Source: a virus. From it: DNA of 33,529 bases. This document shows positions 17,167 through 31,877 of the stretch, one piece after another (positions within the stretch are counted from its first letter, which is position 1; every line of letters begins with the position of its first letter). Under the pieces are notes generated by a model, which did not search any database, was not told the DNA's origin, and saw only the letters and a list, made by a program, of their open reading frames with translations. Location: positions 1 through 33,529 of the IMG/VR virus record IMGVR_UViG_3300027963_000024; one strand, 5' to 3'. Made by a program: the position numbers and the translations under genes.

Positions 17167-17168
17167 GA

Positions 17169-18399: not shown

Positions 18400-18401
18400 A
18401 A

Positions 18402-18713: not shown

Positions 18714-18774
18714 TCAAACGATTCTATTGAAATTTGTACAGAGTGCAAGTGACTGATATCAGAGTGATATCAAC
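18714..18774 (-). promoter_or_regulatory. Candidate late promoter with tandem TGATATCA boxes
   Basis: On the minus strand two 8-bp palindromic boxes TGATATCA, separated by CTC, occupy 18754-18772. They are followed by a sigma70-like TTGCAC (18743-18748), 16-base spacer and TAGAAT (18721-18726), seven bases before the cupin start. The -10 matches consensus in 5 of 6 positions; the -35 is weak. The tandem box is nearly identical to one at 24917-24935, suggesting shared regulation. Confidence 0.45.
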
Positions 18775-20328
18775 TCATGCAAATACATCAAAATCTGTGC
18801 TGGCGCTGGACTGGCCCATGGGTCTGCCACCGAGCTGGTGGGTGCGGGTCATTCGGTTATATTCGCCGCCGCCAAGCATCAGGTAGCCAAAGGAATCGCC
18901 AATGTGGGAGTGCTCATTTTTGTTTGGCGCGTCCCGAAACCGCTCTTGGCCAGCGCCAACTGCCACCCGCTTAAAGTGATAGCCACCAGCAAGCGCTTTG
19001 CGCAGCAGCTTGCACTCGCGGTTAACAATAAGCCCCGGCTTGCCAGCAATAAGTCGCTGCATGGGGGCGGCAGAGGCCTCACGGCGCACCTTGAAGTCGT
19101 TGCTGGCGGTTGGTTGTGCGCGCAGCCCCAAGGTTTTGAGGTAATCAAAGGCTGTGACCTCGTAAATTGCATCTCTGGCCATACCCGCCGGGTCACCCCA
19201 GACCAAAACTTGGTGGTTGGGGTAGCGCTGGTTCAGTTCAGCCAGCAGCTGGTGGCCAAAGCGCTCCAAGCCCATGTCAAAGGTCACGATTTCTTGGTGA
19301 ATCAGCCACCTACCGTTGGGCAAACGCTGGCCAATGGTGGCAGCAGGGGTCAATCCGAAGTCAAGCCCTACCTGTATAGGCACATTGGGGTCAATTTCAG
19401 TCTCACCGGACATGGTTGAGTCTTCATACTCTGGCCAAACAGGCCGTCCTTCCTGCACATAGGTGTACTCACCCCCCGCATAGCACCTGATCCAGTCCAG
19501 GTTCTTGCCAAGCAGCATTTGCTGGTAGTACCCGGGCGGGAGGTTGTGGATATTCTCAGCCTTGGGGTTGACCTTCCACCACTTGCCACTTGCAAAGATG
19601 TGATCGTTGGCTTCTGGCATGTCGGGCAGGTTCTCAACGTCAACAGGCACCACGCCGCCGGGCTGTCGAAAGAACTTCCACGCATAGGCCCCACTCATCT
19701 TCTCCTTCTCGGCCATCCTGTGCCACCAGTGGTCGTCATCGCAAGGGTTGGTGTCCATCCAGATGCCGTGCCAAGTAGCGCCACCATCACGCTTGGTGGG
19801 ATACCGGCCAACCCGGTGGGTCAAGCCATCAATAACAGCCTTGGGCAGCTCACGCGCCTCGTTTACCCAAGCACCTGTGAGCTCCAAGGACAGCAACTTG
19901 CGCACATCCTTGGGTTGATCAAGGGCAAGGAACATGACCTCGCAGTCAATCCCAGCTGCACCCTCACGGGCAGGCAAGCGGATGTGGTGTGTGATGGGAG
20001 GTGTCCACAACATAGGCCCAAACGTGCCCTCTGGGAACAGGTCAAGCCATGTCTTGATGGTCGTCGTCTTCAGCATGGGGTAGCTGTTCCTGACAATCGC
20101 CCAGCGGGAATACCTGACGTTGTCAATGGGACTGGCTTTTTGCTGGACAGCTTTGATGAAGATCTTTGCCGCGCAGCCGTAGCTCTTGCCCGACCCCACC
20201 GGCCCCATGATCCCTTGCACAAAGTTCTTGCTCTGGATAAAGTCGTAGATTACCGGCGACTCGCTGAAGTCTAGGTTCAGACCAGCCATCGGCACCGTCT
20301 TGTCGGACATCTCTTTGGTACGGCTCAT
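18775..20328 (-). CDS. terL: Terminase large subunit
   Basis: The 517-residue packaging motor has an N-terminal ATPase with Walker A GPVGSGKS (42-49), a Walker B/catalytic region GAWVNEAREL with Glu157, and the coupling motif DTN (192-194). The C-terminal RNase H-like nuclease has acidic residues Asp323 (VGLDFG), Asp379 (VWGDPAG) and Asp478 (HIGDSFGY). It cuts and pumps DNA through the portal. TGGAGT precedes the ATG by 8 bases. The small subunit gene lies upstream with three small genes between. Complete, with all key residues present. Confidence 0.95.
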   Translation of the reverse strand: MSRTKEMSDKTVPMAGLNLDFSESPVIYDFIQSKNFVQGIMGPVGSGKSYGCAAKIFIKAVQQKASPIDNVRYSRWAIVRNSYPMLKTTTIKTWLDLFPEGTFGPMLWTPPITHHIRLPAREGAAGIDCEVMFLALDQPKDVRKLLSLELTGAWVNEARELPKAVIDGLTHRVGRYPTKRDGGATWHGIWMDTNPCDDDHWWHRMAEKEKMSGAYAWKFFRQPGGVVPVDVENLPDMPEANDHIFASGKWWKVNPKAENIHNLPPGYYQQMLLGKNLDWIRCYAGGEYTYVQEGRPVWPEYEDSTMSGETEIDPNVPIQVGLDFGLTPAATIGQRLPNGRWLIHQEIVTFDMGLERFGHQLLAELNQRYPNHQVLVWGDPAGMARDAIYEVTAFDYLKTLGLRAQPTASNDFKVRREASAAPMQRLIAGKPGLIVNRECKLLRKALAGGYHFKRVAVGAGQERFRDAPNKNEHSHIGDSFGYLMLGGGEYNRMTRTHQLGGRPMGQSSASTDFDVFA

Positions 20329-20345
20329 CTTCTAACTCCAGTTGT

Positions 20346-20633
20346 TCAGCTATTTGTCTTTTGCGCCACATGGTTCTTTAGCTTGAGTTTGGCTTCAATT
20401 GTTCTTAAAAACGGGTGAAAGTCAGCATCTTCAATTTTCCAATAGTTTCCGTTCCATTTTCCTCCACACTGTATAAATGTGTTTTCCATTTCATCATCTG
20501 TCAGCCCTACCCATGTGCGCTGTGCCAATAGCTTGCCAATAATTCCGTAGCAAGCGGCATGAAGATTGTTTGCTTCTTCGTAATTGCGTGTGCCAGCCTG
20601 ACACCGTTTCATGATTTGCTCTGCTTCAGTCAT
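20346..20633 (-). CDS. Small conserved phage protein, unknown function
   Basis: The ATG at 20633 overlaps the previous stop (ATGA), which favours it over the open frame further up. The 95-residue product has a helical first half (EAEQIMKRCQAGTRNYEEANNLHAACYGIIGKLL, two segments) and a VGLTDDEME turn followed by an aromatic-rich end. Such short proteins lie in the early or packaging region of many phages. No function can be assigned. Confidence 0.6.
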   Translation of the reverse strand: MTEAEQIMKRCQAGTRNYEEANNLHAACYGIIGKLLAQRTWVGLTDDEMENTFIQCGGKWNGNYWKIEDADFHPFLRTIEAKLKLKNHVAQKTNS

Positions 20634-20893
20634 GACTTCACCCCACAAACTTTTTCCATGTACGCCACATAACACTGGTCGGACGTTTCAAATGCTCTGC
20701 TGTCGCCATCAACAAACCAATATCGTTTGCCTTTACCCCATACACCAGTGCGCTTGTTTCGGTCGGTGTACACCTCAACTTGAAGGCCGTGTTTGTCATT
20801 GCGATACATTCTTTGTGCGCCAGTATCAAAAGTAATTCCCGTTCTGTATTCAATCTTGAGTTCACAGAATTCTTCAAATGTCAGTTCAGTCAT
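20630..20893 (-). CDS. Hypothetical protein, basic and aromatic
   Basis: The 87-residue protein has a short acidic helix (TELTFEEFCELKIEY) and then alternating charged/aromatic strands (GLQVEVYTDRNKR, RYWFVDGD), predicted as a small alpha-beta fold. It overlaps both neighbours by ATGA junctions, so it is translated as part of the pre-terminase cluster. I do not recognise a family. Confidence 0.55.
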   Translation of the reverse strand: MTELTFEEFCELKIEYRTGITFDTGAQRMYRNDKHGLQVEVYTDRNKRTGVWGKGKRYWFVDGDSRAFETSDQCYVAYMEKVCGVKS

Positions 20894-21114
20894 TCTTCAC
20901 CTCTGGCTCTGATGGCAAGAGCAATTGTGCTACCGACAGCGCCAAAGCTGTGTTCAGCAACCTTTGCACAGGCTTCACGTTCTTTGGCGGCTACAAGTTT
21001 TGCAAAGGCTTCAAAGCATTTGGCTCTGTCGTTAAACCAATGAGGATCAACCCAACCCTCGCCAGAATCCTTCCATGCTTCTTTAGCCATCTCAATGATT
21101 TCATCTTGTGTCAT
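20890..21114 (-). CDS. Small phage protein of the EREACAKV type
   Basis: The 74-residue helical protein contains CFEAFAKLVAAKEREACAKVAE and ends AIRARGEE. This arrangement is very common in short hypothetical proteins of Proteobacteria phages and has no known function. Both ends overlap neighbours by ATGA. It sits between the terminase small subunit and other small genes. Confidence 0.6.
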   Translation of the reverse strand: MTQDEIIEMAKEAWKDSGEGWVDPHWFNDRAKCFEAFAKLVAAKEREACAKVAEHSFGAVGSTIALAIRARGEE

Positions 21115-21545
21115 GCTTCTCCCCTTGGTGCAACAACATTGATATCAATCACAGACGGCTTCTCGCTGCCGTCATCCGGGTTGTCAAGCAGACCACTTGC
21201 CTTAGCCAGCAGACGCAAGACACCCACCTTGTCATATAGCTCAATGTCCAGCGTGGAGTACACATTGCCGTCGGAGTCTTTCTTGCTGTTGACCTTGACA
21301 GACTTGATCGCATGCAGCGCATGCTCTGGGATATCGCTAGACCTCTTCACCGTCACGTTGCCCTGCTCATCCCAGCTCATGATGTCTGTCAGCTTGGTGT
21401 TGGCCATGCTCAGCAGCGCATAAGCCACAGCCTCTTTGTTGGCCATGATGGTGCTTGAGCGCTCCAACCTGCGCTGCACAGACCTCACCCCACCCCAGTT
21501 GGTCAAGGGAGGGATCACGGTTGACTTAACCCTTGCCCTAGTCAT
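21111..21545 (-). CDS. terS: Terminase small subunit (Terminase_2-like)
   Basis: Residues about 38-121 match the C-terminal oligomerisation part of Terminase_2 small subunits: YALLSMANTKLTDIMSWDEQG, then PEHALHAIKSVKV, then LDIELYDKVGVLRLLAKASGLL. Small subunits bind the packaging site and present DNA to the large subunit. The 37 residues before this domain (basic, with RRLERS) are shorter than the usual helix-turn-helix arm of about 60-80 residues, so DNA binding may be reduced or differently built. The ATG at 21545 overlaps the preceding stop (ATGA). Family call is firm, the N-terminal shortness is a caution. Confidence 0.75.
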   Translation of the reverse strand: MTRARVKSTVIPPLTNWGGVRSVQRRLERSSTIMANKEAVAYALLSMANTKLTDIMSWDEQGNVTVKRSSDIPEHALHAIKSVKVNSKKDSDGNVYSTLDIELYDKVGVLRLLAKASGLLDNPDDGSEKPSVIDINVVAPRGEA

Positions 21546-21832
21546 CAGAATGGAATGTCATCATCAAGGTCTGGCACCACAGCCTTGGGACTCGGCTGGG
21601 CAACAGCAGCACCATACTCAGGCACAGCAGCAGCAGCCATCTTAGGCTTGCCCACCTTGAGCTTGAACCAAACCCCGCCGTCAGGCTTCTTGTTGACGTA
21701 GACATCAAGGAAGTGCTTCGTGCCATCAGGCATCACAAACGTGCCCTTGTAGTCACCATGCCATGTCTCAGTCTTGTCAGCGTTCTTCCAAGCCTTGCCC
21801 TCACTGGGCTTAATCTCGCGGTCATCTTGCAT
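21545..21832 (-). CDS. Probable single-stranded DNA-binding protein (SSB-like tail)
   Basis: The 95-residue protein has a compact beta domain (WHGDYKGTFVMPDGTKHFLD, VYVNKKPDGGVWFKLKVGKPK, residues about 24-64). An Ala/Pro linker and the acidic tip DLDDDIPF (88-95) follow. Such DDxIPF tips are the hallmark by which SSB proteins recruit host repair and replication proteins. The fold is smaller than bacterial SSB, matching a family of short phage proteins annotated only loosely. AAGGAG lies 8 bases before the ATG at 21832, and the gene follows a terminator and long gap. Its stop overlaps the terminase small subunit start. Confidence 0.65.
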   Translation of the reverse strand: MQDDREIKPSEGKAWKNADKTETWHGDYKGTFVMPDGTKHFLDVYVNKKPDGGVWFKLKVGKPKMAAAAVPEYGAAVAQPSPKAVVPDLDDDIPF

Positions 21833-21867
21833 TGCAAATGCTCCTTTTGGTTATTGTCCTACACATG

Positions 21868-21892
21868 AAAAAAAAGGGAAGGTCTAACTTCC
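21868..21892 (-). terminator. Candidate terminator upstream of SSB-like gene
   Basis: On the minus strand GGAAG-TTAGAC-CTTCC, a 5-bp stem with 6-base loop, is followed by C and eight T residues. The stem is short but the T-run is good. It lies 36 bases before the SSB-like ATG, so it would act as an attenuator or end the initiator transcript. Confidence 0.5.
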
Positions 21893-22211
21893 GGGGAAAA
21901 AGCGGGGAAAATTTTAGATAGACCCCCACTCGCTACGGTGAGGGGGTGGGGGGAAGGGTCGCGATTCCGGGCACGTCACCGAGCGCGGGTCGCCTGCGCA
22001 CATGCTGGCGCATATAGGAAAGCCCAGCCGCCAAGGAGTAGACACCCCTTGCTGGCCCTGCTTGTACAGAATCCATACGTTCGTATGCCATTTGGACAGG
22101 CTGACTACAGCGGCCTACAAGGCGCTGAAGGGCTTGGTGGCTACCTGTGGCCTAGACCAGCATGCTGTCGTGGCTGCATAGCACCAACCAAGGGCTTGGC
22201 GGGGCATCCAG
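21893..22211. other. Non-coding gap between initiator and SSB-like gene
   Basis: About 320 bases hold no convincing gene on either strand. Visible are a C-rich/G-rich segment (21932-21957) that can fold with arms CCCCCAC and GTGGGGG on the minus strand; a 14-base palindrome-like site CATACG-TT-CGTATG (22074-22087); and a TTCTGTAC motif (minus strand, 22063-22070) like two others in the control region. A minus-strand 52-codon frame starting MAYERMDSVQ (from 22089) has no Shine-Dalgarno and I do not call it. A plus-strand frame from 21938 has an unnatural Arg/Pro-rich composition. Functions as a leader, small RNA or regulatory region are possible. Confidence 0.5.
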
Positions 22212-23156
22212 TCATCGGGTGTCTGCCACCAGTTGTCTGATCCCTGCCATCAGGACGTGGCTGCTGGGTGTGATGCCCTCAGCTCGGTACAGCGGCAGCA
22301 GGGTGTCGAGCGCGTCCTTGACCTGCTGTGCTGTCATGCCGTCGCTGACAAGTTGTGCGATTTCTTGGTTGTTCAGAACAAACAAGTCTGCATCTTCTTT
22401 TTTAAAGTTATCCACATCACAAGAAGACAACCCTTGTTCTTTGTGTTCTCTACAACCTTTAGAGGTTGTGCCACAAGTGCCCAAAGGTTGTATCTTAAAT
22501 AAGTTATCCACAGCCTCTGGTTGTGCTTGTTTGCTGTCTGGTTGTACAACCTCTGGAGGTTGTGCCTGTGATCCCTTGGCTTGTGCCTTTTTGATGGCTG
22601 CTTTCATGTTCTTGACTGTGACTGTTTCGCCTTGTTTGGGCATAGTTTTGTACCTTGGTTTGGGTTGCTTGAGTACTTTGCTGATTGCTTGGGCGACTCT
22701 GGCTTGGCCCTCTTTGTCTGCTTGTTCTGCTTGCATGGCTTGCTGTTCCTTCATGTAGGGTGGTCTGGTGTCTTCGATGGAGCTGGTGATACTGACTGCG
22801 TCCTCGGCACTGATGGTTGGGTCGAAGATGACACGCCATGTGGTGTGCCTTGCGCCCGGCATAGGCTTCTTCAAGATCTCTAGGTAGCCTGCCTTAGTCA
22901 GCTTGACAAGGTGCTTGCTGATGGCTTGCTGACTGATGCCAAGCCTGTCTGCCATGGTCTTTTGGCCAACCCAAGTGATGCCTGACCTGTTTATGTAGCT
23001 GCATATCAGAATGAGCGACTTGAGCATGCCGTGGGTTAGCAGCGGGTCAGTGCATGCCCTGATCGGTATGACCGCGATCTTGCGCTGGTCAGGCAAAGGA
23101 TCCTTCTCGTAGATCCTTGGCTTCTTTGGCATGTTGAAGTTGACAGGCTCAGTCAT
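22212..23156 (-). CDS. Winged-helix replication initiator (lambda O-like architecture)
   Basis: The ATG at 23156 lies 5 bases after the upstream stop; product 314 residues. Residues about 41-111 form a winged helix: LKSLILICSYINRSGI, TMADRLGISQQAISKHLVKL (68-87) as the helix-turn-helix, then KAGYLEILKKP and a TTWRVIF wing. The middle (about 130-220) is Gln/Lys/Ala-rich linker. The C-terminal part is helical (MTAQQVKDALDTLL). The coding DNA for the linker contains two perfect DnaA boxes and paired palindromes (22408-22563), as lambda ori lies inside gene O. That strongly favours an initiator over an ordinary transcription factor. No helicase or loader gene follows, so the host must supply them. 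Confidence 0.65.
   Translation of the reverse strand: MTEPVNFNMPKKPRIYEKDPLPDQRKIAVIPIRACTDPLLTHGMLKSLILICSYINRSGITWVGQKTMADRLGISQQAISKHLVKLTKAGYLEILKKPMPGARHTTWRVIFDPTISAEDAVSITSSIEDTRPPYMKEQQAMQAEQADKEGQARVAQAISKVLKQPKPRYKTMPKQGETVTVKNMKAAIKKAQAKGSQAQPPEVVQPDSKQAQPEAVDNLFKIQPLGTCGTTSKGCREHKEQGLSSCDVDNFKKEDADLFVLNNQEIAQLVSDGMTAQQVKDALDTLLPLYRAEGITPSSHVLMAGIRQLVADTR
22408..22563. other. Origin-like cluster: two DnaA boxes plus paired 18-bp palindromes
   Basis: TTATCCACA, the canonical strong DnaA box, occurs exactly at 22408-22416 and 22504-22512, same orientation, 96 bases apart. Each is followed 42-44 bases later by an 18-bp palindrome ACAACCTYTRGAGGTTGT (22452-22469 and 22546-22563). Extra GGTTGT half-sites lie at about 22486, 22519 and 22540. 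AT-rich stretches abut both DnaA boxes. The repeated module inside the initiator gene has the layout of an iteron-type origin. Confidence 0.6.
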
Positions 23157-23161
23157 TGCGT

Positions 23162-23455
23162 TCACTTGGATGCCTTCCAGAGTTGTCTGACAATGTCTGC
23201 CAGCGCATTGGCTGCGACATGGCCACGCCTGTCCTGTACCGCCAAGATGTAGTCCCGCCTGCTGATCTGCGGTGTCTTCTTGCGCCGGGTGTTGACCGTG
23301 ACTGGCAGCACCTCGAAAACCCACTTGGCCTCTGTGTAGGCGCGGTAGGCTTCGCTGTAGCTGCCCACGCTGGTCCCGTCTGGCAGCGTGATGAGCTTGG
23401 CATCTGGGTGCACCTTGCCGCAGCTGTGGCAGGCCAGCTCATCTACCGAAGACAC
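23162..23455 (-). CDS. Hypothetical protein with CxxC motif
   Basis: A GTG at 23455 opens a 97-residue protein that overlaps the upstream gene by 17 bases; no better ATG exists in frame. The N-terminal ACHSCGKVHPD resembles half of a zinc ribbon (two Cys and a His). The rest is mixed, with SGYSEAYRAY-type Tyr repeats and a basic patch TRRKKTPQISRRDY, then a helix (GHVAANALADIVRQLW). It could bind nucleic acid. It lies directly before the replication initiator and is probably co-expressed. Family not recognised. Confidence 0.55.
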   Translation of the reverse strand: MSSVDELACHSCGKVHPDAKLITLPDGTSVGSYSEAYRAYTEAKWVFEVLPVTVNTRRKKTPQISRRDYILAVQDRRGHVAANALADIVRQLWKASK

Positions 23456-23630
23456 GGTTGATGATCCTTAAGCCGATACTTGATTGCTTCTGTTTGTCCC
23501 GGCTTTCTTGCAGCAGGCTTCGCAGCCACTTTGTGGCACCAAGCCTTGTCCACTCTTGGTACTCAGATTCAGTCATCCTTACGCCAATTGCTCTGCCGCT
23601 CTTGGTCATCTCACTCTTGGGTCTTGGCAT
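23439..23630 (-). CDS. Small RHH-like basic protein
   Basis: The 63-residue protein has a strand-like GRAIGVRMTESEYQEW followed by RLGATKWLRSLLQES. A short strand ending in T-x-x-E/D then a helix is typical of ribbon-helix-helix (CopG/MetJ-type) DNA-binding proteins, though only one long helix is clear. It overlaps the upstream gene by 20 bases and the downstream by 17. If RHH, it would be the second such protein in this operon; regulation of early genes is then possible. Confidence 0.5.
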   Translation of the reverse strand: MPRPKSEMTKSGRAIGVRMTESEYQEWTRLGATKWLRSLLQESRDKQKQSSIGLRIINRVFGR

Positions 23631-23847
23631 GTGTGTCTTTCAATATCTCTTCGTTTAGCTCAAACGCAATCCTGCGCACTGAGTTCAGCAACTCATGCAG
23701 GTCGGTGACGGTGTTCATCTCCCGCTCAAGCGCTTGTTTGAGCAGATCAATCTGGTAGTGCAGGTTGCGGAACTCGCCGTTGGCTTCCTGCGTGTCACGT
23801 ACGGTGCCCTCGTCGTCCCGGTACAACTTGACGTAGCTGATGTGCAT
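23611..23847 (-). CDS. Helical early protein, unknown function
   Basis: The ATG at 23847 has GGAG 8 bases upstream and overlaps the stop of a 32-residue membrane protein gene (TGATG). The 78-residue acidic product begins HISYVKLYRDDEG and continues as a long helix with heptad-like Leu spacing (LHYQIDLLKQALEREMNTVTD, about 29-49), suggesting a coiled-coil dimer. No known family is recognised. It is in the replication operon downstream of the RuvC-like gene. Confidence 0.6.
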   Translation of the reverse strand: MHISYVKLYRDDEGTVRDTQEANGEFRNLHYQIDLLKQALEREMNTVTDLHELLNSVRRIAFELNEEILKDTHAKTQE

Positions 23848-23945
23848 CACTTGATCTCCAGAAACTTGATCAAAGCCCACAGGACTACAAGCGTGATTAA
23901 TGCGCCAATCAGCATGAGCGCAACGCAAACAAGAAAACTCATCAT
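23847..23945 (-). CDS. 32-residue single-span membrane protein
   Basis: The short gene starts at an ATGATG overlapping the RuvC-like stop (ATGA) and ends overlapping the next start. The product is almost wholly a transmembrane helix (SFLVCVALMLIGALITLVVL, residues 3-22), then WALIKFLEIK with a positive end. Both neighbours are genuine genes and the spacing is exact, so translation is very likely. A role in the inner membrane, such as anchoring replication or modulating the host, is only a guess. Confidence 0.6.
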   Translation of the reverse strand: MMSFLVCVALMLIGALITLVVLWALIKFLEIK

Positions 23946-24403
23946 GTGTGTTTCTCCAGTGACCAGTAGAGGAGGGCGAGCGCGTCTGCTTCGTTGTCGT
24001 CTGTGACTGGATGGCCACGCAGCTGCATGGCCTCGACCATGTCCTGCTTGCCAGCGTTGCCCTTGCCGGTTGCATGCTTCTTGATGGTGCCCACCGGCAC
24101 ACCTTGGTAAGGGATCTTGTGGTGCTCACACCAGCTGGTCAGAGTGGCCATCAAGCCGCCGTAGGTATGCGCTGAGTCGGTGCTGGCATGCCTGCGCACT
24201 TCCTCAAAGTAAACCGCTTGGATGTCGCCGACCGTGCCCTTGAGCTCGGAGAGCCACTGCTTAAAGCGCAGATAACGCATGCCGCCGCCTTCGTACCTGC
24301 CGGGCTTAAAGCTTGCCCAGCCGTGCACAATGCCGCCGTCCATGGGCCTGCATGCCCAGCCGGTGGTGGTGCCCAAATCTAGGGCCAGGATTGTTTCGTT
24401 CAT
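23942..24403 (-). CDS. RuvC-like Holliday junction resolvase
   Basis: The 153-residue protein has the RNase H-like fold of RuvC: LALDLGTTTGWA with Asp9, a second acidic at Glu67/Glu68 (YFEEV), RHASTDSAHTYGGLMATL, and a C-terminal DDNEADALALLYW with Asp136/Asp140. RuvC cleaves four-way junctions in recombining DNA; phages use such enzymes to clear branched DNA before packaging. Length is slightly below E. coli RuvC (173). It lies in the early operon with ATGA overlaps on both sides. Together with the exonuclease and RecT on the other strand it completes a recombination set. Confidence 0.85.
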   Translation of the reverse strand: MNETILALDLGTTTGWACRPMDGGIVHGWASFKPGRYEGGGMRYLRFKQWLSELKGTVGDIQAVYFEEVRRHASTDSAHTYGGLMATLTSWCEHHKIPYQGVPVGTIKKHATGKGNAGKQDMVEAMQLRGHPVTDDNEADALALLYWSLEKHT

Positions 24404-24576
24404 ATGGCACCACCCTCAAGCAGCGCCTGTATGAAGTCATCAAGCTCGGTTGTGGCCACAAAGACGTACTCAAGCATGTCGCCAGTCACGCTCAAAGCGC
24501 TGTTGACAACTTCCTGCGTGTGCTGGGCACCGTCCTTGACGCTGTCAAGCAGCTTGTGTGCTTCCTCGGCAGTCAT
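24400..24576 (-). CDS. 58-residue acidic helical protein
   Basis: An ATG at 24576 overlaps the stop of the RHH gene (ATGA), and the stop overlaps the RuvC-like start (ATGA). The product, beginning MTAEEAHKLLDSVKDGAQH, is acidic and helical with an ELDDFIQALLEGG end. I do not recognise the family. The perfect coupling at both ends supports it as a gene. It might interact with the RHH protein or RuvC-like enzyme. Confidence 0.6.
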   Translation of the reverse strand: MTAEEAHKLLDSVKDGAQHTQEVVNSALSVTGDMLEYVFVATTELDDFIQALLEGGAI

Positions 24577-24770
24577 GCTTTGCCGATCATGTTGTTCAGC
24601 CGCGAGTTGATGTCCGAGTAGTGCGTCGTCAGCACCTCTTCCAAGATCTGGTCAACCAACGTAGAGCGGCTGCGCTGCTGTGCCTCGCATGCGTCGTCAA
24701 GCAAGTCTCGGGTTCGTGGCCGCAGCCTGATGAAGATCGCAGCCTTGGCTTCTTTCTGTGGTTTGTACAT
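24573..24770 (-). CDS. Ribbon-helix-helix (Arc/CopG-type) regulator
   Basis: The ATG at 24770 gives 65 residues; a TTG at 24803 in the same frame lies inside an inverted repeat and is less likely. The RHH layout is clear: strand AAIFIRLRP (10-18), helix RTRDLLDDACEAQQ (19-32), helix RSTLVDQILEEVL (35-47). Such proteins dimerise and insert the strand pair into tandem DNA sites. It is the first gene of the minus-strand block, facing the serine recombinase. A perfect inverted repeat lies 11 bases upstream and tandem 8-bp boxes lie further across the gap. It probably represses itself and the divergent operon. Confidence 0.75.
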   Translation of the reverse strand: MYKPQKEAKAAIFIRLRPRTRDLLDDACEAQQRSRSTLVDQILEEVLTTHYSDINSRLNNMIGKA

Positions 24771-24780
24771 GGTCTTTTGT

Positions 24781-24809
24781 GTATGATTGCAAACAGATAG
24801 CAATCATAC
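24781..24809. promoter_or_regulatory. Perfect 10-bp inverted repeat, candidate operator
   Basis: GTATGATTGC (24781-24790) and its exact complement GCAATCATAC (24800-24809) flank 9 bases. The right arm contains TATGAT on the minus strand, a near-consensus -10. It lies just before the RHH regulator ATG. As DNA it fits a dimeric repressor site for autoregulation; as RNA it would form a hairpin in the leader. Confidence 0.6.
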
Positions 24810-24829
24810 CAATTGAATTCTGTACATGT

Positions 24830-24860
24830 ATCATAAACATAGGGAAAGCACTTAGAAAAT
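24830..24860 (-). promoter_or_regulatory. Candidate promoter for minus-strand early operon
   Basis: On the minus strand TATGAT (24830-24835) matches the -10 consensus in 5 of 6 positions. The hexamer 17 bases upstream (TTTCTA) matches the -35 poorly. The predicted start near 24823 would give a leader of about 50 bases containing the inverted repeat. Confidence 0.35.
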
Positions 24861-24876
24861 AATACAGAAAGGGGGG

Positions 24877-24935
24877 TTTACACGACAGATGGGTTCTGTA
24901 CTAGAATAGCGGCAAGTGATATCAATCTGATAGCA
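24877..24935 (+). promoter_or_regulatory. Candidate recombinase promoter with tandem-box operator
   Basis: TTTACA (24877-24882), a 19-base spacer and TAGAAT (24902-24907) form a sigma70-like promoter, spacer slightly long. Starting about 10 bases downstream, TGATATCA-ATC-TGATAGCA (24917-24935) matches the tandem box near 18.76 kb in 17 of 19 positions. A site just behind the start would repress the recombinase operon when bound. Confidence 0.45.
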
Positions 24936-24969
24936 CTACCCCGAACCACCGAGAAACTGGAGTTCTACC

Positions 24970-25665
24970 ATGACCCCCCACACAGGCAAATTCATAGCCT
25001 ACTACCGAGTCTCTACAGACAAGCAAGGCGTATCTGGCCTTGGACTGGCCGCCCAGCGCGATCTGGTCAATACATTTCTCAATGGCGGCAAATGGTCAAT
25101 CATCGGCGAGTTTACCGAGATCGAATCTGGCACCCGTAAAAGACTCAAAGACCGCCCAAGCCTACAAGCAGCGCTTGATTTGTGCAAGAAGCAAAAAGCC
25201 ACGCTGGTGGTCGCCAAGCTTGACCGGCTCGCCCGTGATGTCCAGTTCATCGCCACACTGCTCAACGGCAAAGTCAATTTTGTCTGCGCAGACATGCCAG
25301 AAGCCAACCGTACTTTCATGCAGATGATGTCTGTCATGGCAGAGCATGAAGCCCGTGTCATCTCTGAGCGCACAACCCAAGCGTTGGCTGCACTCAAGCG
25401 CAAGGGTGTCAAGCTTGGCAGCCCAACACCAGAGATCGGCTCAGTCGCAGGCATCAAAGTCATCGTGCAAAAAGCAGATGACTACGCCAACCGCATAGAG
25501 CCAATTCTTAACGACATCACAAAAAAGACTGGTGCAACCACTCTGCGCGATATCGCCACAGCTCTCACCGCCCGAGGCATAGCAACACCACGCGGCAACA
25601 CCACATGGCACCCCTCACAAGTGAGTAATTTACTACGCAGAATGCGGGGGGGGGGGGTGAATTGA
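24970..25665 (+). CDS. Small serine recombinase (resolvase/invertase family)
   Basis: The 231-residue protein has the resolvase catalytic domain: YYRVSTDKQ with nucleophile Ser15, KLDRLARD (83-90) with conserved Arg86 and Arg89, and MSVMAEHEARVISERT (120-135). A C-terminal helix-turn-helix (TLRDIATALTARGIATPRG, about 191-209, and WHPSQVSNLLRR) binds DNA. It lacks the large zinc-ribbon/coiled-coil region of phage serine integrases, so it resembles resolvases or invertases. It might resolve multimers, invert a segment or integrate. GGAG lies 8 bases before the ATG. The last codons run through a 12-G tract, so the C-terminus is uncertain. Confidence 0.9.
   Translation: MTPHTGKFIAYYRVSTDKQGVSGLGLAAQRDLVNTFLNGGKWSIIGEFTEIESGTRKRLKDRPSLQAALDLCKKQKATLVVAKLDRLARDVQFIATLLNGKVNFVCADMPEANRTFMQMMSVMAEHEARVISERTTQALAALKRKGVKLGSPTPEIGSVAGIKVIVQKADDYANRIEPILNDITKKTGATTLRDIATALTARGIATPRGNTTWHPSQVSNLLRRMRGGGVN
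25646..25657 (+). repeat. 12-base G homopolymer in recombinase 3' end
   Basis: Twelve G residues encode three Gly near the recombinase C-terminus. The present length gives ...RRMRGGGVN. One G fewer stops three residues earlier. One G more reads on without a stop through the next 29 codons to 25751. It could be slippage-prone or hold a sequencing error. Confidence 0.9.
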
Positions 25666-25751
25666 ATACTGAAGAACTAAGCAATCATTCCCCATCAAAA
25701 GACGCAATCCTTATTGGCCAGCGTCTGTTTACAAAGGTCGGTGCCAAATGA
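25662..25751 (+). CDS. Possible 29-residue ORF or frameshifted recombinase tail
   Basis: A TTG overlapping the recombinase stop opens 29 codons (NTEELSNHSPSKDAILIGQR...FTKVGAK) and ends at a TGA that overlaps the next ATG. The G-tract just before could serve as a crude ribosome site. The same frame is open upstream through the G-tract, so this may instead be the true C-terminus of the recombinase. Low confidence as an independent gene. Confidence 0.3.
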   Translation: MNTEELSNHSPSKDAILIGQRLFTKVGAK

Positions 25752-26089
25752 TGACAAAAACTGGGTTCGACGCAGTCAAACCGCTGGACAGCATCAGCGG
25801 CCTTGAGCGCAAGCAGCTGGCCAAGTACTTCGGTCGCATCGGTCGCGGCGTGAATTGCAGGCTCGACGTGCCCGTGCTGGTCATCGGTGACATCAAGTGG
25901 GCAGCCAAGATCTTTGGCGAGCTCTCAGCCAAGCTGGAGCACCTTGGCTTCAAAGATGAACGCAGCGACATCTGGCGAATCATGGCAGCCAGATCGCACA
26001 TGGAACAGGCCCGGTCTGACTTGGCCATTGTTAACAAGAAGGTAGAGGCCACAGCGGTCTACAAAAAGCTAAACCCGAAAGTCAAATGA
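25748..26089 (+). CDS. Unknown protein of the recombination operon
   Basis: The 113-residue basic protein starts at an ATGATG overlapping the preceding reading frame, with AAAGG about 10 bases upstream. Notable stretches are LERKQLAKYFGRIGRGVNCRL and KWAAKIFGELSAKLEHLGF, then a helix IWRIMAARSHMEQARSDLAI. Predicted alpha-beta and cytosolic. No family recognised. Its position right after the recombinase suggests an accessory role, such as a directionality or DNA-binding factor, but no helix-turn-helix is obvious. Confidence 0.6.
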   Translation: MMTKTGFDAVKPLDSISGLERKQLAKYFGRIGRGVNCRLDVPVLVIGDIKWAAKIFGELSAKLEHLGFKDERSDIWRIMAARSHMEQARSDLAIVNKKVEATAVYKKLNPKVK

Positions 26090-26091
26090 GC

Positions 26092-26109
26092 GCTACCTGT
26101 AGTGGTAGC
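26092..26109. other. Small stem-loop in recombination operon
   Basis: GCTACC-TGTAGT-GGTAGC, a 6-bp stem with a 6-base loop, begins 2 bases after the stop of the 113-residue gene. No T-run follows, so it is not a standard terminator. It may stabilise the mRNA or bind a regulator. The gap to the next start (26169) is about 80 bases. Confidence 0.4.
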
Positions 26110-26168
26110 TCGCGCATTGACCTTTGGTCTGTGTATTCTTTGAAAAACAACAGATGAAGGGATTGGAA

Positions 26169-26531
26169 ATGAGAACTTTAAATGTACGGACAGTTAAATT
26201 TAATTGTCCTAGTAGTAGCGCTTCACAGCAGTTGAGTACTATCATGGCAAAATTTCAGATGAAACCCACTTTATACGATGCATATTGTGATTATCCAGAG
26301 GCACACACTACCGGTAGTGTAAGTAATTTAGAGCGAAAAAGACCCTTCAATACGGGCAAAGTGGTGATTGGTGGTGCCTATGTGCCCACCCAGCGCCAGC
26401 ATCCAGACGCTGACGAAATACTCATCCAGAGGGCGCTTCTAAGCAAGCGCCAGCGTGTCCAGTACCCGTTTGATCTGGCCATATATGGCCTTGCCGTGGT
26501 CGCCGTGGTCGTCATCATCTGGGTGGCTTGA
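26169..26531 (+). CDS. Tail-anchored membrane protein, unknown function
   Basis: I choose the ATG at 26169, which has GAAGGGA about 6 bases upstream, over a TTG further up. The 120-residue product has a Ser/Thr/Gln-rich N-terminal part, a middle with KVVIGGAYVPTQRQHPDADE, basic residues SKRQRVQ, and a C-terminal membrane helix (FDLAIYGLAVVAVVVIIWVA, the last 20 residues). This topology places the N-terminal domain in the cytoplasm. The 5' half is more AT-rich than its neighbours. Role unknown; a membrane-bound factor among recombination genes is unusual. Confidence 0.6.
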   Translation: MRTLNVRTVKFNCPSSSASQQLSTIMAKFQMKPTLYDAYCDYPEAHTTGSVSNLERKRPFNTGKVVIGGAYVPTQRQHPDADEILIQRALLSKRQRVQYPFDLAIYGLAVVAVVVIIWVA

Positions 26532-26533
26532 TC

Positions 26534-26836
26534 ATGGCAAACACTCAATCAGCAGCCATTGGCCGGGCCTTGCGCGACAGCCAGCTGGACATGTTTGAAC
26601 TCAGAGACACAGAGTTCCTGAGTCACTGTCGGCAACTAGCAGTAGCGGTTGCCCGCCAACAAGGCACCGTGTGCATCAATGACGTAAGAGCACAGGTCAC
26701 CTTGCCACCAAACCTGCACCCATCAGTCTTCGGTGCGGTTTTCAAGTCATCTCAATTTGAGGTCTGCGGCATCACCAATGCCACGCATGCTTCAGCTCAC
26801 GCCCGAATGATTCGGGTTTACAAACTGGCTAAATAA
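26534..26836 (+). CDS. Small winged-helix-like phage protein
   Basis: The ATG at 26534 gives 100 residues (a TTG at 26528 adds two). LAVAVARQQGTVCINDVRAQV and LHPSVFGAVFKSSQFEVCGI followed by HARMIRVYKLAK match a recurring pattern of small phage proteins with HPxxxGAxFxxxxFxxxG and an R-x-W/Y-L end, which looks like a winged helix. It may bind DNA next to the exonuclease/annealase. Translation couples with the upstream gene, whose stop lies within a few bases of the start. Confidence 0.55.
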   Translation: MANTQSAAIGRALRDSQLDMFELRDTEFLSHCRQLAVAVARQQGTVCINDVRAQVTLPPNLHPSVFGAVFKSSQFEVCGITNATHASAHARMIRVYKLAK

Positions 26837-26848
26837 TAGGAGCAATAA

Positions 26849-27811
26849 ATGGTCAACAAAGTCACGCCCGACACAATGATGTCGGCATCTCGGTTGCCAT
26901 CAATCATGGGTCTGTCGAAATATCAGACCCCGAATGATGAGCTTGAATTTTCAATCAACGCACTTCGGGGCTTGGAGCGCCCCGACATTGGCAACGAAAG
27001 CATGGCATGGGGAAATACCCTAGAGCCATTAATCCTGGCCGAAGCTGCCAAGCGCTTGCAGCTAATTGACTTGGTCACCGATCACGACAAAGCTTTCTTC
27101 CATGATGAGATGCCCTTATGTTGCAGTCTGGATGGGTCAGCCTACAGCCTTGGCCAAGTGGTCACCACCGACACTGAGGCAGGCATCTACGTCATTGGCC
27201 AAGACTCAATCCAGCTTGACGGCATGGGTGTCATTGAGGCCAAGCTGACCGGCATGGATGCCGAGGACATTCCACCACTGTGGCGCGGCCCCATCCAGCT
27301 GCAAGCTCAGATGGACATTGTCAAAGCGAAGTGGGGTTGCTTGGCCACCCTGTACCGTGGCACCCAGCTACGTCTGTTCCTGTTTGCCCCGCACCAAGGC
27401 ACTCTTAATCGAATTCGTGATGTCACGATTGATTTCCAGCTGCGGCTTGAGAACTGGAAAGAGACTGGGTCTGTTGAGTACTACCCACCCCAAGAGGGCG
27501 AGCGCTGGCCAGATACTCGCGGCATTTATCCTGTTGACGAAGAGGTCATTGAGCTGGATGCGTCTGCAACAAAACTTGCCCAGCGCATCTTAGATGCAAA
27601 GCTCACTTTAAAAATTACCGAGCAAAACATAGCTGATACTGAACAAAGCCTAAAAGACCTTATTGGGGTATTTACTACGGCAAAGGTTGGCAACTTTATT
27701 ATTAAATGGCCAGTCCGGTCCTACAAAAGCCAGCCAGAGAAGGTAGTACCAGCCAAAGAAGCATATTCAATTCGTCAATCAAATTTAACAATCAAGGAGA
27801 CAGTCAAATGA
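26849..27811 (+). CDS. YqaJ-type viral exonuclease (PD-(D/E)XK)
   Basis: The 320-residue enzyme begins MMSASRLPSIMGLSKYQTPNDE, like YqaJ/lambda-exonuclease relatives. Catalytic residues are Glu59 (WGNTLEPLIL), Asp95 (CSLDGSAY) and Glu130/Lys132 in GVIEAKLTG. QLQAQMDIVKAKWGCLATLYRG follows as the conserved Gln motif. It resects double-stranded ends 5' to 3' to give single strands for the RecT-type partner encoded downstream. AGGAG lies 6-7 bases before the ATG. The stop overlaps the next ATG (ATGA). Length fits the family. Confidence 0.88.
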   Translation: MVNKVTPDTMMSASRLPSIMGLSKYQTPNDELEFSINALRGLERPDIGNESMAWGNTLEPLILAEAAKRLQLIDLVTDHDKAFFHDEMPLCCSLDGSAYSLGQVVTTDTEAGIYVIGQDSIQLDGMGVIEAKLTGMDAEDIPPLWRGPIQLQAQMDIVKAKWGCLATLYRGTQLRLFLFAPHQGTLNRIRDVTIDFQLRLENWKETGSVEYYPPQEGERWPDTRGIYPVDEEVIELDASATKLAQRILDAKLTLKITEQNIADTEQSLKDLIGVFTTAKVGNFIIKWPVRSYKSQPEKVVPAKEAYSIRQSNLTIKETVK

Positions 27812-27969
27812 CTAAACAGCAACAAGTGCAGAACGCACACGCCATAGCAACTGTCGCAATCCTTGAGGCAATGCCAGACTTGAGCATTGACCAAGCTGGA
27901 AAAATTGTTGAATCTATTGCCACACTGGTTTTTGAAACCTTGCGCGCAAATTTAGACGGGGAAGAGTAA
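27808..27969 (+). CDS. 53-residue helical protein between exonuclease and RecT
   Basis: An ATG at 27808 has AAGGAGA 7 bases upstream and overlaps the exonuclease stop (ATGA); the stop overlaps the RecT-like start (TAATG). The acidic, helical product (HAIATVAILEAMPDLS, IDQAGKIVESIATLVFETL) has no recognised family. Its strict location between two partner recombination proteins suggests a modulator of that pair. Confidence 0.65.
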   Translation: MTKQQQVQNAHAIATVAILEAMPDLSIDQAGKIVESIATLVFETLRANLDGEE

Positions 27970-28952
27970 TGCAGCTGACAACTACAAGCCAGCGTGGCTT
28001 TGCGCCAGCAACGCTGACCGAGGCCATTACCTTTAGCGAGATGTTGTCCAACAGCAACATGGTGCCCAAGGCCTACCAAGGCAAGCCTCAAGACATTCTT
28101 GTCTGTGTGCAGTGGGGCATGGAAATGGGATTGGCACCCATGCAAGCCTTGCAAAACATTGCGGTGATCAATGGCAAGCCATCGGTCTACGGCGATGCCA
28201 TGATGGCGCTGGTGCAGGCCAGCTCTGTCTGCGAAGACGTTGAAGAGTACTTTGAGAACGAAGGCACACCTAACCCCATAGCTGTTTGCATTGCCAAGCG
28301 CCGTGGCCGCAAGCCTGTGACTGTGAAGTTCTCACGCGAAGACGCGCAGCGAGCTGGTCTATGGGGCAAGCAGGGGCCGTGGACGGCATACCCTCGGCGC
28401 ATGCTTCAGATGAGGGCAAGGGGTTTTGCGCTGCGGGACTGTTTCCCAGATGTCCTCAAAGGCTTGATCAGCGCCGAGGAAGCGCAAGACTACCCGGATG
28501 AGGCCAAGCCAAGGCCGGTGGCCAAGCCAGCTAACCCGCTGGACATGGTGACCAAGCCTGAGCCTGTGGCCATCCCAGTTGTGGCCAGCGAGCCAGACAT
28601 TTTTGACGCTGAGCTAATTGACAGGGTTAAGCCAGAGCTGGTTGAGGTGTTGGCTGATATCCCGCAGCCGGTTGATGACAGCGTCCAGCCCGTTGGCTTT
28701 GCTTTGCTGGTGCCCGGCAAAGAGGAGCCATTCTCATTGCATCAACAGTTGGATGAGTGGCAAGATGCCTACGAAGATCTGGCCGACAAAACAGCTAGAG
28801 CTGGCAAGCGGCCAGCCCGTGAGCGCATGACCGCTTTAAAAGAACTACGCTTGGCCAACGAAGACACCATCGGGCGCATTGATCAAGTCAAGCGGATCAG
28901 GCACACAGCCAACTACACCCTGCGCATCAAAGCGCTGGGCGCAGCTCAGTGA
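27969..28952 (+). CDS. recT: RecT-family single-strand annealing protein
   Basis: The 327-residue protein has MVPKAYQGKPQDILVCVQWG, MEMGLAPMQALQNIAVINGK and PSVYGDAMMALV (residues 31-82). GLWGKQGPWTAYPRRMLQMR (130-149) and ALRDCFPDVLKGL follow. These are signature blocks of RecT annealases, which coat single strands made by the exonuclease and pair them with a homologous strand. The C-terminal 150 residues are a Pro/Val-rich linker and a helical charged end. It is last in the plus-strand operon, and its stop abuts the endolysin stop. Confidence 0.9.
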   Translation: MQLTTTSQRGFAPATLTEAITFSEMLSNSNMVPKAYQGKPQDILVCVQWGMEMGLAPMQALQNIAVINGKPSVYGDAMMALVQASSVCEDVEEYFENEGTPNPIAVCIAKRRGRKPVTVKFSREDAQRAGLWGKQGPWTAYPRRMLQMRARGFALRDCFPDVLKGLISAEEAQDYPDEAKPRPVAKPANPLDMVTKPEPVAIPVVASEPDIFDAELIDRVKPELVEVLADIPQPVDDSVQPVGFALLVPGKEEPFSLHQQLDEWQDAYEDLADKTARAGKRPARERMTALKELRLANEDTIGRIDQVKRIRHTANYTLRIKALGAAQ

Positions 28953-29417
28953 TCAAGCCACCAAGCCCGGCAGGTAGGTTGTCTTGCCTGCTACCTTGGT
29001 GGCCGTCAACACTTGAGCCTTTAAAGCCTGTGGATTAAATGAGGCATGCACCCACCCCGAATCAGGGATTCCGGGTTGAAAAAATTCAAGGATCAATTGG
29101 CTGAATTGCAAGTTCTCTTGCACCCACAGCGCCAGCTCATCATTTGACACACCGTCAATTTCAAAGTCAACTGCTTGGCCTTTGCAATGATCTGAGGTTG
29201 CAGATCCACCCGTGAGCCGGTTCAATTCTGCACAGCGAAATGCACTATTGATCCGCACTGGTTTGCCATAGTGATCTCGCACTGGCTGCAATATGTTTTC
29301 GCAGAGCAAGCGCAGTGATTCAATCTGCTCTTCGTTTGGCTGGTTGTCAACGTCATGGCGTATTGCCGTTTCCGACTTGGTGAGCTCACGCAGGGTGAAG
29401 TTTGCTGACAAATTCAT
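28953..29417 (-). CDS. Endolysin, M15-type peptidase
   Basis: The 154-residue protein has the zinc site of M15_3 peptidases: SDHCKGQAVDFE with His77 and Asp84, and WVHAS with His124. INSAFRCAELNRLTGG (56-71) is a typical preceding block. It cleaves peptide cross-links of peptidoglycan. There is no signal peptide or membrane helix, so it needs the holin to escape. AAAGG lies 6 bases before the ATG, which overlaps the Rz stop. It is last in the lysis cassette. Confidence 0.9.
   Translation of the reverse strand: MNLSANFTLRELTKSETAIRHDVDNQPNEEQIESLRLLCENILQPVRDHYGKPVRINSAFRCAELNRLTGGSATSDHCKGQAVDFEIDGVSNDELALWVQENLQFSQLILEFFQPGIPDSGWVHASFNPQALKAQVLTATKVAGKTTYLPGLVA
28958..29002. other. Inverted repeat at the convergent operon ends
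   Basis: CCACCAAG (28958-28965) and CTTGGTGG (28995-29002) are exact complements, with an inner GCAGG/CCTGC pair. The structure lies inside the last codons of the endolysin gene, just past the RecT stop. No T-run follows on either strand. It may slow or block convergent polymerases. Confidence 0.4.
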
Positions 29418-29881
29418 TTGATACCTTTCTGCGATTCAATCGCTGAGTTATAAAGATCAATACATGCGTTTAGTTTTTGTACTGCGCGATCACCCTCATC
29501 AGTCAGGGCGAGAGCAGCTTTAATAAACGCTCGCTCAGATTCGGCTGATGCTTCTCTTGCACTATCTCCGCTGGCAGGGGTGGAATCTGTGGCGGTATGT
29601 ACGGGGCAGGCGGCTTGGATAGGAACCCGCAGCTTGATACTGCCACTGTCAATAGCAGCATCGCGCTGCTTTGCCATAGTCTTTGCTTTTTCATTTGATG
29701 ACCTCAATGCGGTTGCAGTTGTTGTAACGGCAGCGGCCAGCGCTACTTCCTTGGCCCGTGCTTGTATGTTCAGCCGATCAACCTCGGCCTGCTGTGCTTT
29801 GGCCTCATAGTGTTTACCAGTCCAGTAGCCACTGCCAAACACCAGCACCAAGGCAAACAAGCCAGATAGCAAACCGTTCAT
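29414..29881 (-). CDS. Rz: Rz-like inner-membrane spanin
   Basis: The 155-residue protein has an N-terminal membrane anchor (LLSGLFALVLVFGSGYW, 4-20). A long Ala/Gln-rich periplasmic coiled coil (about 22-80) follows, then RVPIQAACP (85-93) and a C-terminal AALALTDEGDRAVQKLNACIDLY, the usual Rz-family ending. With an outer-membrane partner it fuses the two membranes in the last step of lysis. The partner gene is nested inside in another frame. Overlaps the holin and endolysin genes by ATGA. Confidence 0.82.
   Translation of the reverse strand: MNGLLSGLFALVLVFGSGYWTGKHYEAKAQQAEVDRLNIQARAKEVALAAAVTTTATALRSSNEKAKTMAKQRDAAIDSGSIKLRVPIQAACPVHTATDSTPASGDSAREASAESERAFIKAALALTDEGDRAVQKLNACIDLYNSAIESQKGIK
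29503..29694 (-). CDS. Rz1: Rz1-like outer-membrane lipoprotein, nested in Rz
   Basis: This 63-residue frame lies wholly inside Rz in another reading frame. Its ATG at 29694 has GAGG 7 bases upstream. A signal peptide ends in a lipobox (AVSSC, Cys22), and the mature part is Pro-rich (KPPAPYIPPQIPPLPAEI), exactly the Rz1 pattern. It would sit in the outer membrane and bind the Rz C-terminus across the periplasm. Confidence 0.8.
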   Translation of the reverse strand: MKKQRLWQSSAMLLLTVAVSSCGFLSKPPAPYIPPQIPPLPAEIVQEKHQPNLSERLLKLLSP

Positions 29882-30198
29882 GGTTTAGGTGGCTCGTCGT
29901 AATCGTTGGCTTCAGCCTTTGCAATAGCTTTTGCAACCGCTTTGACACCAGACCGGCCAGCAACACCACCCAGTACACCTGTGATGAACACCATGATCGT
30001 GCTTATTTGAGCTGTGTAGACTTTGTCAATTGGAGCCATGCCAGACATTGGCTGAGTCACCCATGTCACTGAATACAGGAACATGGCCATAGCTCCAAGC
30101 AAGATCAAAACAAGGGAGATGATTACAAAAGCCCAGACACGAGCTTCTATTTCCTCTGGTGTCAGGCGGCTTGATTTATTCATCACAATAGTTGGCAT
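29878..30198 (-). CDS. Probable holin with two membrane helices
   Basis: The ATG at 30198 has AAGGAG 8 bases upstream and overlaps the preceding stop (TGATG); a GTG three bases earlier is possible. The 106-residue product has TM1 at about 22-46, TM2 at about 63-81 (TAQISTIMVFITGVLGGVAG) and a charged tail. Size, two spans and place before Rz/Rz1 and endolysin fit a small holin that times lysis. Holins vary too much for sequence proof. Confidence 0.7.
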   Translation of the reverse strand: MPTIVMNKSSRLTPEEIEARVWAFVIISLVLILLGAMAMFLYSVTWVTQPMSGMAPIDKVYTAQISTIMVFITGVLGGVAGRSGVKAVAKAIAKAEANDYDEPPKP

Positions 30199-30383
30199 CA
30201 CTTTTTCTCCTTCTCAGGTGCTACAAGTTGATCTGGGCATGTTCCGGTTGCTGAACATATTGGCGGCTTGCATTCGGTGTTATTCCAATTCTTTGGGTCT
30301 TGGCAGGGATAGCGAAACCGATCATCACAGCCAGTCAACAAGACCAGCAAAATTGATATGCCCCAAATGCAGTAAATATTCAT
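30198..30383 (-). CDS. Small Cys-rich lipoprotein
   Basis: The 61-residue protein has a signal peptide and a clear lipobox LTGC (Cys19). The mature part holds four further Cys (27, 38, 43, 49) within DDRFRYPCQDPKNWNNTECK and PPICSATGTC, so disulfides are likely in the periplasm. I recall similar lipoproteins beside lysis genes in environmental phages. It is separate from Rz1, so the phage makes two lipoproteins. Superinfection exclusion or a spanin-like role are options. Confidence 0.7.
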   Translation of the reverse strand: MNIYCIWGISILLVLLTGCDDRFRYPCQDPKNWNNTECKPPICSATGTCPDQLVAPEKEKK

Positions 30384-30544
30384 TTGTCTTTTTCCCTTTG
30401 TTGCTGTTCCACTTGCCGTCTGAGCTTCTCTACTTTTTCCACTTGCGCATTGACCTCATGCTTTGCTTCCAAGATATCGAGGTACAACATTGCACCAAGC
30501 GGCAGGATGAACGCTGCAAACACAACCAAAAGAATCGCAGCCAC
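30380..30544 (-). CDS. Small membrane protein with cytosolic or periplasmic coiled coil
   Basis: I choose the GTG at 30544, which shares a base with the upstream stop (TAGTG) and has a GGGGGA site before it. An upstream ATG at 30667 would overlap the previous gene by 124 bases. The 54-residue product is a membrane helix (AAILLVVFAAFILPLGAMLY, 2-21) and then a charged coiled coil (HEVNAQVEKVEKLRRQVEQQ). This is i-spanin-like in design, and the next gene is a lipoprotein. A second spanin-like pair is possible but unproven. Confidence 0.55.
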   Translation of the reverse strand: MAAILLVVFAAFILPLGAMLYLDILEAKHEVNAQVEKVEKLRRQVEQQQREKDK

Positions 30545-31242: not shown

Positions 31243-31248
31243 GATGCA

Positions 31249-31404
31249 TCACAGCTTCAGCACCAACGTCATCAACATGCCAATGATGGCGGCGCAGCTG
31301 CCGATCAGAATCTGCTCAATGCGCTTGAGCCGAGCGTTGATACTGTCGTAGCGAAACTCGCAGACCTGTTCGTGCGTATCCAGTCGGGCTTCTGTTGGTG
31401 TCAT
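31249..31404 (-). CDS. 51-residue membrane protein next to lysis cassette
   Basis: An ATG at 31404 overlaps the preceding stop (ATGA). The product, MTPTEARLDTHEQVCEFRY..., has a short charged helix (INARLKRIEQIL) and a C-terminal membrane helix (GSCAAIIGMLMTLVLKL). This layout is common in small phage proteins near holins and may be an accessory holin-like or stator component. Too short for certainty. Confidence 0.6.
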   Translation of the reverse strand: MTPTEARLDTHEQVCEFRYDSINARLKRIEQILIGSCAAIIGMLMTLVLKL

Positions 31405-31874: not shown

Positions 31875-31877
31875 GTG

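Follow-up and report, generated by a model that had tools for sequence, protein, structure and literature searches.

A recurrent, length-variable poly-G run at the end of a phage serine recombinase gene as a candidate slippage-prone frame gate

The recombinase gene and the operon behind it

The stretch of DNA analyzed here, called the window, comprises the whole 33,529 bases of IMG/VR virus record IMGVR_UViG_3300027963_000024. Its first and last 127 bases (positions 1-127 and 33403-33529) are identical. A length of 127 is that of a common assembler k-mer. We read this terminal identity as the overlap of a circular assembly, and the record is probably a complete circular phage genome map. A megablast search with window positions 15000-33529 gave no match to known phages in the phage collection. 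The structural and lysis genes that could be recognized are on the minus strand. A plus-strand operon extends from about position 24970 to 28952 and has a serine recombinase gene as its first member and genes for RecE-like and RecT-like proteins as its last.

The recombinase gene (24970-25665, plus strand) encodes 231 amino acids as assembled. The protein is a small serine recombinase of the resolvase/invertase type, with matches to Pfam PF00239 (E 6.3e-27), weakly to PF07508, and to the DNA invertase family PHROG 125. Residues R13 and S15, which we take to be catalytic, are invariant in 31 aligned recombinase sequences. All 300 recombinase matches in the phage collection were below 60% identity, with values of 36-39% among the 40 matches listed. 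No invertible segment with a flanking pair of sites was recognized among the repeats in the window. A perfect 18-nt inverted repeat links positions 19606-19623 in the terminase gene to 25291-25308 in the recombinase gene, and by eye either copy would be read as DMPEAN within its respective gene. When this pair was sought in nine loci, only L050 spanned both places, and it has neither copy; four other loci show one copy. As a test for a site pair this comparison is weak.

The second gene of the operon (25748-26089, plus strand) encodes a 113-amino-acid protein with relatives in 44 viral loci and no PHROGs or Pfam family match at a threshold of 0.001. It is followed on the same strand by an ORF of 23 codons (26086-26157) with ATGA overlaps on both sides, a 125-amino-acid ORF (26154-26531), a 100-amino-acid ORF (26534-26836) weakly matching PHROG 27658 of unknown function, the RecE-like exonuclease gene (26849-27811; PHROG 434, Pfam YqaJ) and, at the operon end, the gene for the RecT-like annealing protein (27969-28952; PHROG 561, Pfam RecT). 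The chain around the 23-codon ORF is kept in contigs L004 and L005 with 1-3 amino-acid differences, and its upstream overlap is absent in L135. The first-pass annotation of this DNA had described overlapping genes throughout the operon. This is accurate for the ATGA sequences at 26086-26089, 26154-26157 and 27808-27811 and for the TAATG at 27967-27971, but there are gaps between 26531 and 26534 and between 26836 and 26849. Upstream of the 113-amino-acid gene in the window we found by eye only an AAGG, about 10 nt from the ATG. With such a weak ribosome site, coupling to translation of the recombinase gene would matter. In L008 and L009 a fair ribosome site (AAGGAT, by eye) precedes the corresponding gene, and coupling would matter less there.

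Reading outcomes of the G tract and the end of the recombinase

Near its 3' end the recombinase gene contains an uninterrupted run of 12 G (25646-25657, plus strand), a candidate slippage-prone frame gate. It is the longest single-base run in the window, the runner-up having 8 bases, and from the dinucleotide frequencies of the window about 0.00045 G runs of at least 12 are expected. The first-pass annotation had proposed three different protein ends depending on the number of G residues, and both the tract and all three endings proved exact when the window was re-read with other G counts. With 12 G the recombinase ends in RGGGVN after 231 residues and with 11 G in RGGG after 229 residues. With 13 or 10 G it is 260 or 259 residues long, respectively, and ends in NTEELSNHSPSKDAILIGQRLFTKVGAK. 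In the latter two cases the stop codon is at 25749-25751 and the ATG of the next gene begins at 25748, which gives an ATGA overlap. For the clade of the window these outcomes follow a phase rule: 3k G give an end in GGGVN, 3k+2 a stop directly after the glycines and 3k+1 the tail. Both non-tail frames terminate at most 8 bases behind the run. The tail frame, ELNTEELSNHSPSKDAILIGQRLFTKVGAK followed by a stop (25659-25751, plus strand), is thus in frame with 10, 13 or 16 G, and it is in frame in L004. By the genetic code, tract length sets whether the predicted recombinase stops or continues with an extra tail that reaches the start of the next gene; the altered protein product is deduced by translation only. 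A recombinase C-terminus called from one assembly at this locus is therefore one of three, which is a warning for annotation.

The recombinase core, including the DNA-binding C-terminal domain, appears complete before the tract, as judged from an AlphaFold model and from where homologues end. The core ends at about residue 225, just ahead of the tract. In the model of the tailed L004 form (mean pLDDT 74, pTM 0.48) helices span residues 192-201 and 215-225, the second being the last core helix. Values of pLDDT below 50 occur at residues 228-260 and in a short stretch at 54-56; the tail is predicted to be disordered in this model, for which only the query row of the alignment carried the tail. 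The homologues include, from one scan, the best 80 of 325 recombinase relatives. Among 98 viral contigs with the recombinase, three end before the site (L007, L015 and L112), seven have the run and 88 do not, so that a poly-G run is present in 7 of the 95 contigs with a readable 3' end (the window and L135 are outside this count). The end was measured in 87 of the 88 tractless contigs, L042 being missed by the motif. In 83 of these 87 there is no tail and at most 3 residues separate the last helix motif from the stop, and the remaining four extend 7, 7, 21 and 130 residues further.

Because nearly all tractless homologues stop near the same point, the tract decides only what comes after a complete recombinase. 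The run should accordingly not switch the recombinase on or off but only choose its appendix. The suggestion in the first-pass annotation that the intact gene has another G count thus finds no support in its simple form, and we rejected the idea of a broken recombinase on the same grounds. Whether homologues end at the same residue, which had been named as a possible refutation, has a divided answer: nearly all tractless relatives do, and the tract-bearing ones do not. In the close relatives L010-L014 both tract and tail are missing and a TAATG joins the recombinase directly to the next gene, so neither is essential to the recombinase family. Another arrangement occurs in tractless L016 (5679-5775) and several of L066-L101, where an ORF starts directly at the recombinase stop via TGATG or TAATG; it has about 30 codons in L016, and elsewhere its start resembles a small membrane peptide by eye.

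In a tree of 39 rows all run-bearing recombinases belong to a single clade of 13 rows with 98/99 support, and this clade also includes the tractless members L057 and L059-L061. This topology would fit one gain of the tract with losses, or a regain in L065. The tree labels L054 (the L007 contig) and L062 (the L015 contig) as having no tract, and both end before the site; the L054 label contributes one of three changes on the tree, so only two are real. A scan of genome contigs for prophage copies gave three distant loci with 48-52% identity, and the two that are readable at the recombinase end are both tractless.

Recurrence of the tract and constraint on the tail

Scans with the recombinase, with its 3' end plus G9 and with the next gene showed that eight more viral contigs, all from uncultured bacterial viruses, have a run at this position. 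The assembled counts are 12 G in L135, 13 in L004, L008, L009 and L045/L065, 14 in L006, 15 in L005 and 18 in L043. In all nine contigs, the window included, the run is uninterrupted, and this holds while the flanking DNA of the window is only about 68-78% identical to that of the L050 and L045 tract lineages. Where tract-bearing contigs continue beyond the run, their flanks are homologous to those of the window and lie in the same order; these contigs come from several datasets. Besides these tracts, the only G or C run found was one of 9 C in L042 (runs of at least 8 in L004-L050 and of at least 9 in L051-L131). An integration or inversion junction at the tract was considered and is unsupported, as the flanks have the order of the window and identity to L004 and L005 is unbroken at the tract.

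The clearest length difference is between contigs L044 (L005) and L046 (L043), two partial genomes from two datasets with assembly counts of 15 and 18 G. They are otherwise identical: their 6,466 shared bases, of which 115 precede and 6,351 follow the run, contain no mismatch. Both frame states occur among the contigs. In L004 the recombinase carries the tail because the run has 13 G and is read straight into it, whereas the tail is out of frame in the other four window-clade contigs with a reliable tail (the window, L005, L043 and L135). With 12-18 G neither length nor phase is fixed, the 3k+2 case in the window clade being L006 alone, of which the contig end is apparently corrupted. L135 and L006 have the same dataset number and 12 and 14 G, respectively, and we gave the L006 count no weight because of that contig end. 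Behind its G run (L006:4783-4827) 8 of 45 bases differ from L135; all eight have become A or T (G>T, C>A, T>A) and are probably read errors behind the homopolymer. Both L007 and L135 terminate about 5 bases away from the G tract, as expected from mixed lengths or hard-to-read DNA. The first-pass annotation had cautioned that homopolymers of this size are error-prone in sequencing, and counts in G runs are described as error-prone in the cited part of PMC9187656. The presence of the tract in eight other contigs answers this concern for the tract itself, but the exact count in each assembly remains uncertain. Its proposal that length variation toggles the protein tail is supported by the 15 and 18 G in otherwise identical contigs, by the occurrence of both frame states and by the codon-level constraint described below.

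Four distinct tails are available in the window clade (window, L004, L005 and L135). Ten of their 13 variable columns are at third codon positions (binomial p = 0.0016), and pairwise comparison gave 3-7 synonymous changes per approximately 21 sites and 1-4 nonsynonymous changes per approximately 69 sites. In the other two frames behind the run nearly all changes would be nonsynonymous, and both contain stops. The third-position bias indicates that the tail has been read as protein, and from this codon pattern the tail is probably translated at times. The test covers 13 sites in four sequences; L043 was left out as its tail is identical to that of L005, L006 because of its corrupted-looking end, and L008, L009 and L065 for want of an end-to-end alignment of their tails. 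Three of the four tested contigs do not read the tail from the recombinase (window 12, L005 15 and L135 12 G). The L008 and L009 tails differ at five sites, and third codon positions of the LNTE frame are not in excess among these. Between tract clades the tail is kept only as LNTE or LKTE, and the L065 tail is not recognizably related. In L008/L009 and L065 the frame that reaches the next ATG also ends by ATGA (YLNTEVLNPLKDKP, YLKTEVLIPSKDKS and LTNKSSNKENGAPV), and the assembled G counts are out of this frame. Synonymous divergence of the tail exceeds that of both flanking genes in the three pairs among the window, L004 and L005; in pairs with L135 it is not clearly above that of the next gene. 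No variable column occurs in the four tails over the 24 bases that directly follow the run (window 25658-25681; chance 0.013), synonymous sites included, and this invariant segment may hide a further signal.

The mechanism that we propose operates on the DNA. Slippage during replication of phage DNA would change the number of G residues at the 3' end of a complete recombinase gene. With 3k+1 G the protein would gain the 30-residue tail and the ribosome would terminate right at the start codon of the gene that follows, while with other counts ribosomes would be released 80-90 bases upstream of that start. A phage population would then contain a mix of short and tailed recombinase with an untouched core, together, probably, with both weakly and strongly coupled translation of the early operon with its 113-amino-acid protein, small ORFs and RecE-like and RecT-like proteins. 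Three parts of this scheme are inferred, namely slippage of the DNA itself in the living phage, a functional role of the tail and an effect of coupling on the expression of downstream genes. The whole reading, in which part of the population gains the tail and translational coupling to the next gene through a frame gate, seems to us about evenly balanced between right and wrong. A bolder extension is doubtful: the unstable run would be a stochastic translational valve by which one slippage event alters the C-terminus of a site-specific recombinase and also connects or cuts off the ribosome flow into the homologous-recombination operon (RecE/RecT), so that the virions of a burst are pre-set to different recombination programmes.

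The same tail constraint could arise without a change in the DNA. Recoding at the RNA level, by a -1 ribosomal shift or by slippage of RNA polymerase on the G run, would produce a fixed share of tailed protein whatever the DNA length, and would account for a tail that is constrained as protein although the window, L005 and L135 all have 3k G, from which one -1 shift reaches the tail. As far as the cited text goes, low-level frameshifting occurs on a run of 7 G in a viral mRNA (PMC5009743), and RNA G-quadruplexes can stimulate -1 frameshifting (PMC3919603). Folding of six sequences gave no stable RNA structure behind the tract (z 0.03 to 1.57, each sequence being no more stable than its shuffled versions on average; G-quadruplexes are outside the model). 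Furthermore, the tail is reached without a shift in L004 (13 G), the shift would have to go in the opposite direction in L008 and L009, and the assembled DNA length varies to an extent that a tuned recoding site would not tolerate. We consider recoding unlikely, though it deserves to be taken seriously. Alternatively the tail could be a small gene of its own, for which the G run acts as a Shine-Dalgarno-like site and tract length is irrelevant. A possible TTG start in the tail frame is located 4 nt behind the tract in the window (25662-25664, plus strand) and its clade, 3 nt behind in L009 and 2 nt in L065. The 23-codon ORF at 26086-26157 is another very short chained ORF in the operon, the tail constraint is independent of the recombinase frame, and the lack of variable columns in the 24 bases behind the tract points the same way. 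On the other hand, L008 has CTG instead of TTG, ribosome binding does not need a pure run of 12-18 G, and this reading offers no reason for an uninterrupted run in all nine contigs. We regard an independent small gene as improbable. Sequence alone does not separate these two readings from a gate at the DNA level; we prefer the latter because there is no RNA structure, because L004 is in the tail frame without a shift and because the run is pure and variable.

Two further explanations dispense with a translated tail. The 3' end of the gene may simply tolerate frame changes, with a chance expansion of G and a meaningless tail. The tractless close relatives, the recombinase core that is complete without the tail and the L008/L009 tails without coding constraint all agree with such neutrality. 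The third-position excess in the window-clade tails conflicts with it, as does a run that stays uninterrupted although its flanks have diverged so far between lineages, and we find it as improbable as a separate small gene or slightly more so. Finally, the run could result from sequencing or assembly, by poly-G read ends or a miscounted homopolymer. Many runs of 14 G were found at locus ends among the matches listed, with at least 30 runs more than 300 bases from a locus end, and the corrupted-looking end of L006 and the reported errors in G-run counts (PMC9187656) point the same way. In contrast, about 7.9 kb separate the tract of the window from the closer contig end, contigs of several datasets reach past the tract into homologous flanks in the same order, and no second such run was found in the scanned loci L004-L131. 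We therefore reject an artefact for the existence of the tract and judge it highly improbable overall, the exact counts per contig being arguable.

Comparison with known systems

A literature search limited to open-licence papers turned up no publication that describes a recombinase gene with a terminal poly-G run. The catalytic domain (PF00239) and the invertase family (PHROG 125) are those of Gin-type invertases and resolvases, but the G run, present in the 7 of 95 readable contigs, sets this group apart from other small serine recombinases. Runs of 14, 14 and 15 G were also observed in an apparent C-5 cytosine DNA methylase gene in L175 (1452-1465), L186 (4846-4859) and L233 (5323-5337), which is not part of this operon; the assignment is based on Pfam PF00145 before the run in L175 and on sequence likeness in L186 and L233. 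This methylase is a candidate phase-variable phage methyltransferase.

Slippery sites for programmed frameshifting are usually of fixed length. The poly-G locus has in common with the slippery runs of phages and IS elements that one N-terminus is combined with two C-termini, as described in the cited parts of PMC5009743, PMC3711429 and PMC1088944. The downstream frame is kept as protein in the window clade, but here the run varies in DNA length and phase and no stable structure follows it.

The locus resembles poly-G simple-sequence-repeat phase variation more closely, with a long pure run, a length difference in identical contigs and, by translation, an altered product. In sortase-pilus operons of Bifidobacterium breve, G-tract length likewise decides whether translation of the first ORF continues in a second frame. 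According to the cited sections of that work, pilus-like structures were made by strains in which the G tract had been brought in frame, and its authors infer that translation runs on into the second ORF and that downstream genes are affected (PMC9187656). That operon is cellular and encodes a surface pilus, and its out-of-frame product is truncated, whereas the first protein of the phage operon appears complete in every state. Hypermutable poly-G tracts are also known from Campylobacter phages (Sorensen et al. 2021, Cell Rep 35:109214, as cited in PMC11868660 and PMC10579305). Both there and here a phage carries a poly-G run of which a length change alters a phage protein. In those accounts the switch acts on expression of a receptor-binding protein, while the gene described here encodes a serine recombinase and only its tail and the junction with the next gene would be affected. 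Poly-G switching in phages has been documented for a host-recognition protein; a run that recurs and varies in length at the end of a recombinase gene would extend such switching to DNA-processing genes. It would also extend it to the junction between two operon genes, which would be controlled while the first protein is retained.
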